Below are positions 51 to 22,363 of a stretch of 64,000 bases of DNA, piece by piece. This DNA is from an uncultured Alphaproteobacteria bacterium (GTDB lineage Bacteria; Pseudomonadota; Alphaproteobacteria; RF32; CAG-239). The stretch's first letter is position 1, and the number at the start of each line of letters is the position of its first letter. The DNA is taken from NCBI GenBank assembly GCA_944392295.1, contig CALXWE010000003.1, positions 1-64,000 of the forward strand. The letters run 5' to 3'. A program made the translations under genes and the position numbers. Below the pieces are notes generated by a model that was given only the letters and a program-made list of their open reading frames with translations, ran no database searches and was not told the origin of the DNA.

Positions 51-671
51 ATGAAATTTAATGAACTTGGTCGGTCAATGGTTGAAATGTTAGGAGTATT
101 GGCGATAATTGGGGTTTTATCCGTTGGCGCTCTATCCGGCTATAACAAAGCCATGTTTAAATACAAGCTCAACAAACAAGCCGAACAAATTTCTACCATA
201 TTCAACAACATGCTCATAGAACACGATAAACTAAAACACTCTTTTACCTCCCCTCAATATCAAAATGATATTACCTCAACCATTCTGGCTATGAATATCG
301 TATCGCCTGAAATGCTCAATTCTCAGCATACTAAAGTAATTGACATTTTTAATAATGAATACCGCATAAGCTATGGTACAGACGGAATAAAAAGGATAAA
401 CTATTCAATAGTTTTTAACAATGTGAAGGACTATGCTTTCACTGAGCAATGCATAAATGTCTATAATACATTAAAAGAGTTTTCTTCTTACCTATGGTTT
501 ATTCAGTTATCATCTACGCCACGTATTTACGGCGACGCCTTTTGCGAGAGGTATACAACCCCCGAATATTGCCTAAAAAACCAAAAACTTACCGATTTTG
601 AAAAAACTTGTAGCACTATGCATAACTCAGGGATACAACGTTCTATATTAAGTATCAACTGGACTTTGTAA
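51..671 (+). CDS. Pilin-like protein with type IV prepilin signal, family copy A
   Basis: This 206-residue protein has a 7-residue leader (MKFNELG) followed by RSMVE and a hydrophobic stretch ending near residue 30. That fits a class III (type IV prepilin) signal: cleavage after Gly7, and Glu at position +5 of the mature chain. The rest is a predicted soluble domain with cysteines near its C-terminus, including GDAFC, YCLKN and KTC. Three further family members lie in this window, and all share the N-terminus and the upstream box. It stands alone as a single-gene unit and ends at a bidirectional terminator shared with tuf. Family membership is clear. Whether it forms a pilus, a pseudopilus or something else is unknown, because no assembly ATPase or prepilin peptidase gene is present here. 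Confidence 0.85.
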   Translation: MKFNELGRSMVEMLGVLAIIGVLSVGALSGYNKAMFKYKLNKQAEQISTIFNNMLIEHDKLKHSFTSPQYQNDITSTILAMNIVSPEMLNSQHTKVIDIFNNEYRISYGTDGIKRINYSIVFNNVKDYAFTEQCINVYNTLKEFSSYLWFIQLSSTPRIYGDAFCERYTTPEYCLKNQKLTDFEKTCSTMHNSGIQRSILSINWTL

Positions 672-10498: not shown

Positions 10499-10534
10499 TG
10501 CAAAAAAAAAAAACGGTTTATGATTTCGTTTAAA
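10499..10534 (+). promoter_or_regulatory. Conserved pilin-family upstream box, copy B
   Basis: A run of A residues followed by CGGTTTATGATTTCGTTTAA matches the boxes at 19164 and 21663 almost base for base, and 33 nt separate it from the ATG at 10568. The preceding bases (CCTTTTAAAGTTGC) also match copy D. AAACG and CGTTT within it form a short inverted repeat with an 11-nt spacer. Confidence 0.75.
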
Positions 10535-10567: not shown

Positions 10568-11320
10568 ATGAAATTTAATGAACTTGGGCGGTCTTTCTGC
10601 CGCAAAAAGCTGCAGATGTGTAGCAATTTTGTGACAACGTGTACAATAAGAGGTACACGAGGAGCAAAATTGCCAGCAGATGCGACTTTTTCCGGAAGAT
10701 CTATGGTCGAAATGTTAGGAGTCCTCGCTATCATTGGTGTACTCTCAGTTGGCGCCATTGCTGGATACTCGAAGGCAATGATGAAGTATAAGCTTAATAA
10801 ACACGCAGAGGCGTTAAATGCTCTTATAAACTACGGACTACAATACAAAGATAAATTTGAACGTATTCCCCAACAAGTAACTCGTTATAATCAAATATTA
10901 TTCAAACTTAACATGATTCCTGAAGGTATTTCATATGTTTCCGAAAATTCAATGAAAGATATGTTTAACAATACCATTTCCGTGTTCTACAACAATGGTC
11001 CCGTTGAAGATCACTTTAATGACTTTGGAGGACTATCAATGACGTTTGCCGCGTCACCCCAAGGTGCTGAAATTTGTCGCAATGTTGTAAATGTTGCCAA
11101 AGAAAATAGCGCTGATTTGTGGCAAGTAGAAACATACAAAGGAAATAGCGACAACTCTACAACTATTGTCGGTAACATATATGTCGGTAACATATATGGT
11201 GATAACTACTGCGGGAAAAGTGGCTTAAAATGTTTAAGCAAGTTAAGTCTTTCCGACCTGGATGCCTTATGTAATATATGTGATGACCAAACCTGCACGC
11301 TCTACATACTTTGGAAATAA
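10568..11320 (+). CDS. Pilin-like protein, family copy B, with palindromic insert in its leader
   Basis: This 250-residue protein begins MKFNELGRS like its relatives. It then carries a 36-residue in-frame insert (residues 10-45) encoded by a DNA palindrome. GRS recurs at the end of the insert and leads into MVEMLGVLAIIGVLSVGA. Predicted prepilin-peptidase cleavage is after Gly43, so the whole insert falls in the discarded leader. The mature domain keeps the family cysteine frame: EICRN, GDNYC, LKCLSK, ALCNIC and QTCT. Start and ribosome site (AAGGAGGATTTAG) match the other copies. It is a single-gene unit that meets ftsY tail to tail with only 4 nt between the stops. Confidence 0.85.
   Translation: MKFNELGRSFCRKKLQMCSNFVTTCTIRGTRGAKLPADATFSGRSMVEMLGVLAIIGVLSVGAIAGYSKAMMKYKLNKHAEALNALINYGLQYKDKFERIPQQVTRYNQILFKLNMIPEGISYVSENSMKDMFNNTISVFYNNGPVEDHFNDFGGLSMTFAASPQGAEICRNVVNVAKENSADLWQVETYKGNSDNSTTIVGNIYVGNIYGDNYCGKSGLKCLSKLSLSDLDALCNICDDQTCTLYILWK
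10595..10702 (+). repeat. In-frame palindromic element (element 1) inside pilin copy B
   Basis: This is a 108-bp segment (36 codons) absent from copies A and D. It is an imperfect palindrome centred near 10648. CGTGTAC / GTACACG (10638-10644 / 10653-10659) surrounds an 8-nt loop, GCAATTTTG / CAAAATTGC (10623-10631 / 10665-10673) forms the mid stem, and CCGCAAAAAG pairs roughly with CTTTTTCCGG further out. Codons for Gly-Arg-Ser occur on both sides, as a target duplication would give, although the two copies differ in codons. Its form is like that of Rickettsia palindromic elements; identity with a named family is not claimed. Confidence 0.75.
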
Positions 11321-19230: not shown

Positions 19231-20058
19231 ATGAAATTTTATCAATTTTTATGCCAATTCGTAAAAATCAGCCCCTTTTTTCCCGAAAGTTTGGAGAAGA
19301 GTTTAGATAAAGTCGTTTCTAGGGGCGAAAAAAATTTTAGTGTACACAAAAAGTACATGAATTTTTTAAGACCCCGTAAAACGGCTTTAGATGAGCCCTT
19401 ATACAAACTTTCCGCCGGCAGATCTATGGTGGAAATGCTCGGCGTTTTAGCCATTATCGGTGTCTTATCAGTTGGGGCTCTATCTGGTTATTCACGAGCC
19501 ATGTTCAAATATAAAATCAACAAACAAGCCGAACAAGTTTACCAACTAATAGCCAACACTTATCAATATTTCACTCAAGTTAAATCTCTCAGTGCAAATA
19601 CTGGCTCATCTTTGATACCTTTTTTAGAAAAAATGAACTTAATCCCCGACGGATTAAAACGCGTAACAACCAGCCTATATGACAGCCTTGACACCCAAAT
19701 AAGCGTATATCAAAGTCCCGGAGATAACAGCATAACCTACTTTGCCTTTGTACTAAGTTCAACACTGAGTAAAGATAAAAGCTCAGCTACGCAATCGTGT
19801 TTTAATCTTGCTCAAATTGCTAAAGATTATGCTATTAATCAAGAATCAAATTTTTACATGCTGACCATATCAACTGCCCAAAACAATACTACAAGTAACC
19901 GTTATGCCTACTACGGAACTAGAACCGTTTCTAACTGTTCATCGGTTAAGTGCTTAAAAAACATCAGTGATAATGAATTAATGCAGGCTTGCGGACAAAT
20001 CTCCGATGTTCGCAGTAGCAATGAAAATATCCATATAAGTATTACCGTGTTTTATTAA
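19231..20058 (+). CDS. Pilin-like protein, family copy C, with palindromic insert in its leader
   Basis: This 275-residue protein starts MKF like its relatives. The rest of the usual leader is replaced by about 57 residues encoded by a second, unrelated palindrome. The normal sequence resumes at GRSMVEMLG. Cleavage is predicted after Gly63, leaving a mature chain of about 212 residues that starts RSMVE. The C-terminal half has QSCFN, VSNCSSVKCLKN and QACGQ, a diverged version of the family cysteine frame; the GD.YC motif seen in A, B and D has become YYGTRTVSNC. CGGAGG lies 6 nt before the ATG, and a bidirectional terminator follows about 90 nt downstream. Confidence 0.83.
   Translation: MKFYQFLCQFVKISPFFPESLEKSLDKVVSRGEKNFSVHKKYMNFLRPRKTALDEPLYKLSAGRSMVEMLGVLAIIGVLSVGALSGYSRAMFKYKINKQAEQVYQLIANTYQYFTQVKSLSANTGSSLIPFLEKMNLIPDGLKRVTTSLYDSLDTQISVYQSPGDNSITYFAFVLSSTLSKDKSSATQSCFNLAQIAKDYAINQESNFYMLTISTAQNNTTSNRYAYYGTRTVSNCSSVKCLKNISDNELMQACGQISDVRSSNENIHISITVFY
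19282..19415 (+). repeat. In-frame palindromic element (element 2) inside pilin copy C
   Basis: This is an imperfect palindrome of about 134 bp centred at 19348.5. All arms are symmetric about that point: TGTAC / GTACA (19341-19345 / 19353-19357), GGGG / CCCC (19322-19325 / 19372-19375), AAAGTCGTTT / AAACGGCTTT (19309-19318 / 19379-19388), and GAAAGTTTG / CAAACTTTC (19285-19293 / 19404-19412). It is open in the gene's frame and supplies most of the leader peptide. It shares the central TGTAC...GTACA with element 1 but little else. Confidence 0.75.
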
Positions 20059-21730: not shown

Positions 21731-22363
21731 ATGAAATTTAATGAACTGGGCAGAAGTATGGTCGAAATGCTTGGTGTTTTAGCCATTATCGGAGTACTCT
21801 CCGTTGGCGCTATTGCCGGCTATTCTAAGGCGATGACTAAGTATAAGCTCAATAAACAAGCCGAACAAATCGGAAGTGTTTTAGATTATATTTCTATTTA
21901 CAGCGAACAATTATCTATTGTTGGCAACCAAGTCTCAAGTTTAAATCAATTATTGATAAAACTGGGAGTAATTCCTACCGAAATGATTAATCCTGACAAT
22001 TTATCTTACGTATACGATGTTTTTGGCAATCGCATATACTTTTTCCGTGGCAAAGAAAGTAACGGTGCTCAGTATTACACTATGGTTATTATTATAGATA
22101 AATATTCTCATGAAATTTGCATGAATCTATATCAAATGGCTAAACTTCGCTCCGCCAACTTATGGCAAACCGTATTTACTAAGGACCAAGAAAGCGGTGA
22201 AAATTCCTCAGGAAACCGCATTTTTGGCGATTCTTACTGCACCAAAAATGTAAAGTGTCTTCAAAATTTAGATTTGTCACAAATGGATGAATTATGCAAC
22301 TTCTGCAATGATGCAAATAGTATATGCCGATTTAACATCTTATGGGATTATAAAAAAGGATAG
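21731..22363 (+). CDS. Pilin-like protein, family copy D
   Basis: This 210-residue protein has the simple leader MKFNELG and mature start RSMVE, with no palindromic insert. The hydrophobic N-terminal helix is almost identical to copy B in protein but uses different codons. The C-terminal half shows the fullest cysteine frame: EICMN, SANLW, FGDSYC, VKCLQN, ELCNFC and SICRF. Copies B and D are the closest pair, sharing KYKLNK, the LW motif and the ILW ending. It meets fmt tail to tail 21 nt away, with no clear terminator between them. Confidence 0.86.
   Translation: MKFNELGRSMVEMLGVLAIIGVLSVGAIAGYSKAMTKYKLNKQAEQIGSVLDYISIYSEQLSIVGNQVSSLNQLLIKLGVIPTEMINPDNLSYVYDVFGNRIYFFRGKESNGAQYYTMVIIIDKYSHEICMNLYQMAKLRSANLWQTVFTKDQESGENSSGNRIFGDSYCTKNVKCLQNLDLSQMDELCNFCNDANSICRFNILWDYKKG

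Follow-up and report, generated by a model that had tools for sequence, protein, structure and literature searches.

The window (the whole stretch of DNA analyzed, 64,000 nt) contains a pilin gene, copy B, whose leader is lengthened by an in-frame palindrome, here called element 1 (Table 1). The protein begins with MKFNELGRS, continues with 36 inserted codons, the last three of which encode a second Gly-Arg-Ser, and then reads MVEMLGVLAIIGVLSVGAI. An earlier note on this DNA had reported the 36 extra in-frame codons and had described the insert (10595-10702) as an imperfect palindrome; sequence and translation bore out the former, and the arms of the latter were found as given. The fold of positions 10585-10712 had a free energy of -48.9 kcal/mol, compared with -30.9 +/- 3.6 kcal/mol for shuffled sequences (z = -5.0), and none of the 200 shuffles was as stable.

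Table 1. Features of the extended pilin leader, its surroundings, and related leaders in the window
Feature	Position	Strand	Remarks
Promoter-like stretch TTGC-A12-CGGTTTATGATTTCG	10500..10530	+	Conserved and common to pilin paralogues; putative promoter
Pilin copy B, extended leader	10568..11320	+	250 aa; read from sequence
Original leader start MKFNEL and first Gly-Arg-Ser	10568..10594	+	Layout as in the 27 empty paralogues
Element 1 (type 1), imperfect in-frame palindrome	10595..10702	+	108 bp, 36 codons; ends in second Gly-Arg-Ser
Left terminal arm of element 1, TTCTGCCG	10595..10602	+	TTCTTCCG in most copies
Inner arm of element 1, GCAATTTTG	10623..10631	+	Sequence, fold
Tip arm of element 1, CGTGTAC	10638..10644	+	Sequence, tip-pattern search
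Tip arm of element 1, GTACACG	10653..10659	+	Sequence, tip-pattern search
Inner arm of element 1, CAAAATTGC	10665..10673	+	Sequence, fold
Right terminal arm of element 1, CGGAAGA	10693..10699	+	Codes for Gly(-1)-Arg(+1) at the predicted prepilin-peptidase site
Class III (prepilin) signal core G^RSMVEMLGVLAIIGVLSVGAI	10694..10760	+	Read from sequence
Element 2 (type 2), related palindrome, same tip	19290..19408	+	In leader of pilin 19231-20058
Pilin paralogue, empty leader (MKFNELGRSMVEM)	21731..22363	+	Leader comparison
Pilin paralogue, empty leader (MKFNELGRSMVEM)	51..671	+	Leader comparison

Pilin B has the features of a type IV prepilin: Gly at -1, Glu at +5, a hydrophobic helix, and a single prepilin peptidase in the genome (profile match to PF01478, 8.6e-19). 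A GspF/PilC-type gene is also present. The PF07963 (N_methyl) model scored 12.9 bits on pilin B, below its cut-off of 21.2. Judged by the motif and the peptidase, the leaders, approximately 43-150 aa long when extended, would be removed. The insert had been placed wholly upstream of the cleavage site; this was slightly off because the element itself supplies the cleavage-site codons through its right terminal arm.

Terminal inverted repeats of 8-9 bp (e.g., TTCTTCCG/CGGAAGAA and GAACGACCG/CGGTCGTTC), a feature by which MITEs are recognized, bound the elements. Gly-Arg-Ser flanks the insert on both sides in different codons, the right copy lying inside the terminal arm, and there is no exact target-site duplication. 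At fine scale, the terminal arm and the Gly-Arg-Ser codons co-varied strongly between types (P = 5e-5, pooled); the signal was absent within type 1 and within type 3, and no claim is therefore made within types.

The poly-A tract of the promoter-like region was 9-14 nt long, mostly 12 (9-13 in 42 pilins of the source genome), and variation in its length could switch the expression of individual pilins. The body of pilin B contains an exact 15-bp in-frame tandem duplication (TGTCGGTAACATATA) at 11167-11196.

Sequence searches of the source genome (1.43 Mb, 24 contigs) found 11 copies of element 1, which were 83-100% identical and lay on seven contigs, plus elements of other types. All 11 occupied an identical position in pilin genes, at one and the same codon boundary. 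The pilin family comprises approximately 53 paralogues with a near-constant N-terminus: the short empty leader MKFNEL/GRSMVEM was found in 27, one or two elements in 14, and an apparent tail of element 2, left after an internal deletion, in six more (counts from the raw leader list; the module classifier misses some type 1 copies, such as L009). One copy, L006, has a frameshift within element 2. The tip pattern GTGTAC-N4-10-GTACAYGA had two matches in the window (0.00 expected) and 17 in the genome, compared with none for the reversed control. Pilin leaders held 16 of these 17 cores; the remaining core was intergenic, with a pilin on one side and the 3' end of rpoA on the other. Unrelated genes yielded no in-frame copies, the coding copies being confined to pilin leaders. 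At the ftsY locus, where pilin B resides, no pilin was seen in 17 relatives, so this locus offers no orthologous empty site.

Pilin leaders were also read in two congeners, both uncultured Alphaproteobacteria MAGs (39 of 52 in G001, BRZ_LA__bin12; 40 of 64 in G002, BRZ_EQ__bin53). These leaders were modular, with elements of types 1, 2, and 3 occurring singly or serially, up to four in a row (e.g., 2-1-3-2), and all in frame. Type 1 and type 3 inserts were exactly 36 codons (108 bp) between Ser and Met, and in 33 of 43 leaders the tip was 33 nt away from the second Gly-Arg-Ser. In G001, empty ATGCGGGAAAATGGTAGAAGT/ATGGTC leaders stood beside filled ATGCGGGAAAATGGTAGAAGT/99 nt-GGTCGGTCT/ATGGTC leaders with similar 5' regions, forming matched empty and filled MREN leaders. 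The search for further copies and empty sites that the earlier note had proposed was thus positive (11 copies, 27 empty paralogues, and the matched leaders of G001), and the two findings that it held would count against mobility, the lack of a second copy and orthologues sharing the leader as ordinary protein, were not what we observed.

A 36-codon element occupied the same GRS/M boundary in another genus (G018), in which a REP-like CGTCATTGCGAG repeat was also present in many leaders (of 12 copies retrieved, 11 lay in pilin leaders); more than one kind of repeat has therefore settled in the prepilin leader. Several pilins of this genus (L295, L298, L299, and L308-L310) have in common another in-frame leader insert of approximately 47 codons (KSHPSQSLAKANASRDLQINFNQAEDALTIPAESRHDYKCGSATQS). 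Pilin amplification was extreme in some genomes (approximately 53 in the source genome, G000, 52 in G001, 64 in G002, and at least 150 in G018), and 1-18 pilins were found in each of the other family members searched. The highly amplified pilins share an unchanging N-terminus, with bodies that vary, and their genomes measure approximately 1.4-1.6 Mb.

We consider it probable that element 1 is a palindromic repeat that was inserted into a prepilin leader and then spread through the large pilin family. A terminator-type palindrome would have entered the leader in frame, splitting GRS^MVEM exactly at the Ser-Met codon boundary, and its right terminal arm, encoding Gly-Arg-Ser, would have restored the class III cleavage motif. 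The element would then have spread across the family by founder insertions followed by recombination between paralogues or by re-insertion. It would belong to a lineage-wide hairpin family with a common tip and with arms that change yet remain complementary, found at gene 3' ends in sister genera. Prepilin peptidase should remove the added peptide, whose sequence would then be immaterial. The element may survive in leaders because it has no in-frame stop, because its right arm re-supplies Gly-Arg-Ser, and because the leader should be removed; it would bring the host no benefit. With a peptide that appears unconstrained in sequence and is expected to be clipped away, the leader seems to offer repeat DNA a harmless place to settle.

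A search for the PF01797 family pointed to no transposase as the agent of movement: a Y1 transposase was absent from G001, G003, G006, G007, G010-G012, and other element carriers. The Y1/RAYT transposase was rejected as the driver, as its presence showed no correlation with copy number, and phages and plasmids were rejected as carriers after a search that gave no match to the element. The copies in leaders had one orientation and one position throughout. The codons to the left of the insert were CGGTCA in 7 of 10 filled genes, compared with 2 of 27 empty genes (P = 3.5e-4). This link, together with the fixed position and orientation, is more readily explained by recombination after a small number of founder insertions than by numerous transpositions. 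Terminator-type hairpins may instead insert repeatedly and site-specifically between Ser and Met, their own arm re-creating the cleavage motif each time; we hold this as a tentative possibility, and founder insertion with recombination between paralogues explains the pattern equally well. If repeated insertion were true, selfish DNA would have in the prepilin leader a landing site that is dedicated to it and repairs itself, in bacteria with 50-150 pilins. The mobile history proposed in the earlier note therefore stands as far as a multi-copy insert with empty sites is concerned, and the spread may be recombination between paralogues rather than transposition.

Hairpins of approximately 118 nt with the same GTGTAC-loop-GTACAYGA tip and very different arms were found across this family of bacteria and, outside it, in a few genomes, the whole range being approximately 108-120 nt. 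The copies elsewhere that the earlier note had envisaged thus exist: relatives hold copies outside pilin genes, mostly intergenic. An intergenic tandem array of type-3-like palindromes in G001 (L201, 541-960) is not part of any pilin, so the same element type occurs in and outside pilin leaders of one genome. Among the 77 non-pilin cores, 63 had the 3' end of a gene pointing toward them from the right. Of these, 43 lay at a distance of 25-65 nt from a stop codon, all oriented the same way, compared with none in the mirror arrangement. UUUU followed 27 of these 43 stop-proximal cores (background, 31%). The neighboring genes include rpoA, tuf, rplA, and pgk (names from reading translations). Hairpins of approximately 118 nt abutting stop codons were seen in G003-G012 and others (e.g., L084, L087, L101, L063, and L246), and these hairpins at gene 3' ends are a candidate new family of structured, terminator-like repeats. 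No Rfam family matched near element 1 or its relatives.

Pairing was conserved although the arms differed. In the alignment of the element 1 class (14 copies), 95.5% of cells were paired, double changes occurred in 10 of 24 pairs, and none of 500 shuffles reached this level. In nine copies of one hairpin class, the corresponding values were 95.3% and 26 of 43 pairs (covariation 0.496, compared with 0.191 in shuffles, 0/500), with four one-sided and 69 two-sided changes. The ATAATAAG class was one of the hairpin classes aligned. These figures somewhat overstate the support for covariation, as the shuffles keep relatedness and the structure was drawn from the same alignments; slid-partner controls, of which 30-56% were paired, make the same point as the shuffles independently. 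G-U pairs were rare (5.7-7.6%, compared with 13.7% in folded shuffles), which suggests that pairing is upheld at the DNA level, for example by template switching, or is needed on both strands.

These observations bear on whether the insert acts as a functional 5' hairpin, a structure early in the mRNA that adjusts, for some of the pilins, translation or stability. The very stable fold, the pairing preserved through double changes, and the unvarying orientation in leaders fit such a role, and the presence of elements in only some leaders makes regulation of those genes possible. We nevertheless consider it unlikely: approximately half of the paralogues do without the element, the members of this family in relatives are found at gene 3' ends and are oriented the other way, elements stack to four and decay to remnants, and the few G-U pairs and one-sided changes point to pairing of DNA or of both strands.

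The hairpins and the common leader might also serve the exchange of variable pilin bodies (antigenic variation) and be kept for this DNA function. The genome has more than 50 pilins in which the 5' part is conserved and the body varies, and leaders and bodies have been reshuffled, pilins with 75-93% identical bodies having different leaders. In G002, a chimeric element (L227, 983-1101) joins the left half of type 1 to the right half of type 3 at the tip, with the palindrome broken, which suggests recombination between elements. A role as a recombination handle is still quite unlikely, given that empty pilins are at least as numerous as filled ones, that the conserved N-terminal codons by themselves provide homology, and that the same hairpins occur without any tie to pilins in other genera.

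The divergence of the insert favors insertion followed by spread, the reading we prefer. Synonymous divergence (pS) of the insert lay in the range 0.05-0.15 (0.15 in type 1, 0.06 in type 3), compared with 0.69 and 0.64, respectively, in adjacent codons, and identity of the element was 88.6% in G000 and 95.1% in G001, compared with 82-83% in the left flank and 77% in the right flank. Being less diverged than its flanks, the insert therefore reached the pilin genes after their divergence. The left flanks of filled genes were no less diverse than the corresponding flanks of empty genes, and the different leaders of pilins with similar bodies agree with such spread. Without mobility, an ancestral long leader would have been duplicated with the gene, short leaders would be deletions, and template switching would keep the arms complementary. 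The single position and orientation agree with this, remnant leaders show that deletion happens, and mutation by quasipalindrome correction is documented (PMC7202029) and has been discussed for coding palindromes (PMC6649704). The reading is very unlikely in view of the divergence values, of the different element types that the same boundary holds in different leaders and genera, and of the precise empty sites with intact MKFNELGRSMVEM and MRENGRSMVEM frames.

The pN/pS of the insert was 0.78 in type 1 and 1.25 in type 3, with differences spread evenly across codon positions, whereas the initial 30 codons of the mature part of these genes gave 0.11 (type 1 genes) and 0.13 (type 3 genes). The insert is thus neutral as a peptide, to judge from substitution patterns, which is consistent with a disposable leader. 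The sense frame had no stops in the elements, and on average 3.6 of six frames were open, compared with 0.8 of six in non-pilin relatives. That the insert is ordinary leader protein, palindromic by chance, agrees with the frame being open in all intact copies and is hardly credible, being already contradicted by a pN/pS near 1, by the conservation of base pairing instead of peptide, and by the existence of non-coding relatives.

Among known systems, the closest likeness is to the RPEs of Rickettsia and their Wolbachia counterparts. RPEs are alphaproteobacterial palindromes of 100-150 bp, of several families with dispersed copies, that insert in frame without loss of the open reading frame (PMC3767692, PMC10969869); element 1 is likewise a 108-bp palindrome with dispersed copies, in frame in existing open reading frames. 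RPEs, however, occur in many unrelated genes, whereas the coding copies here are confined to one codon boundary in a leader that should be removed, within a single amplified family of genes; moreover, the present elements can stack, and their relatives lie at gene 3' ends. The comparison with such palindromes made in the earlier note thus holds for the in-frame position, the many copies, and the empty sites, and fails for coding copies in unrelated genes. Because this hallmark fails, and because the comparison was of features rather than of RPE sequences, element 1 was not filed as an RPE; it appears to work like one, and membership is not claimed.

REP/REPIN sequences (GTAG or CGTC tags) are also palindromic repeats frequent at gene ends, and the leaders of G018 hold the REP-like CGTCATTGCGAG. 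REPs are given as 20-40 bp (PMC3733652), whereas the elements here are 108-120 nt; they are not RAYT-driven REPs, because several carriers have no Y1 transposase. The MITE-like terminator elements SPRITE, named as rho-independent terminator-like (PMC10969869), and RUP of pneumococcus are short non-autonomous palindromes as well, but here no parent transposon (among PF01797, phage, and plasmid matches) or exact target duplication was found, and the arms are wholly different between loci yet complementary. The coding palindromes of Nematomorpha mitochondria (PMC6649704) are inverted repeats in coding sequence whose arms stay complementary; they lie inside conserved protein sequence, whereas the present insert lies in a neutral leader. 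In-frame palindromic elements as such are already known, and what is new is the removable leader as the distinguishing feature. A literature search, mostly of journals open without subscription, turned up no description of a palindrome in a prepilin leader.

Rickettsia has been known to carry in-frame palindromes since 2000, and their tolerance by proteins has been a puzzle. Here, tolerance gets a simple candidate reason, as the insert lies in a peptide that is expected to be removed. Each genome provides dozens of natural replicates, in which filled sites can be compared with empty ones alongside and the mature N-terminus serves as a built-in control, and neutrality, spread, and arm maintenance become measurable in the pilin-leader system. 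The in-frame inserts are linked to gene-end hairpins with co-varying arms and few G-U intermediates, which makes the maintenance of palindromes at the DNA level testable.
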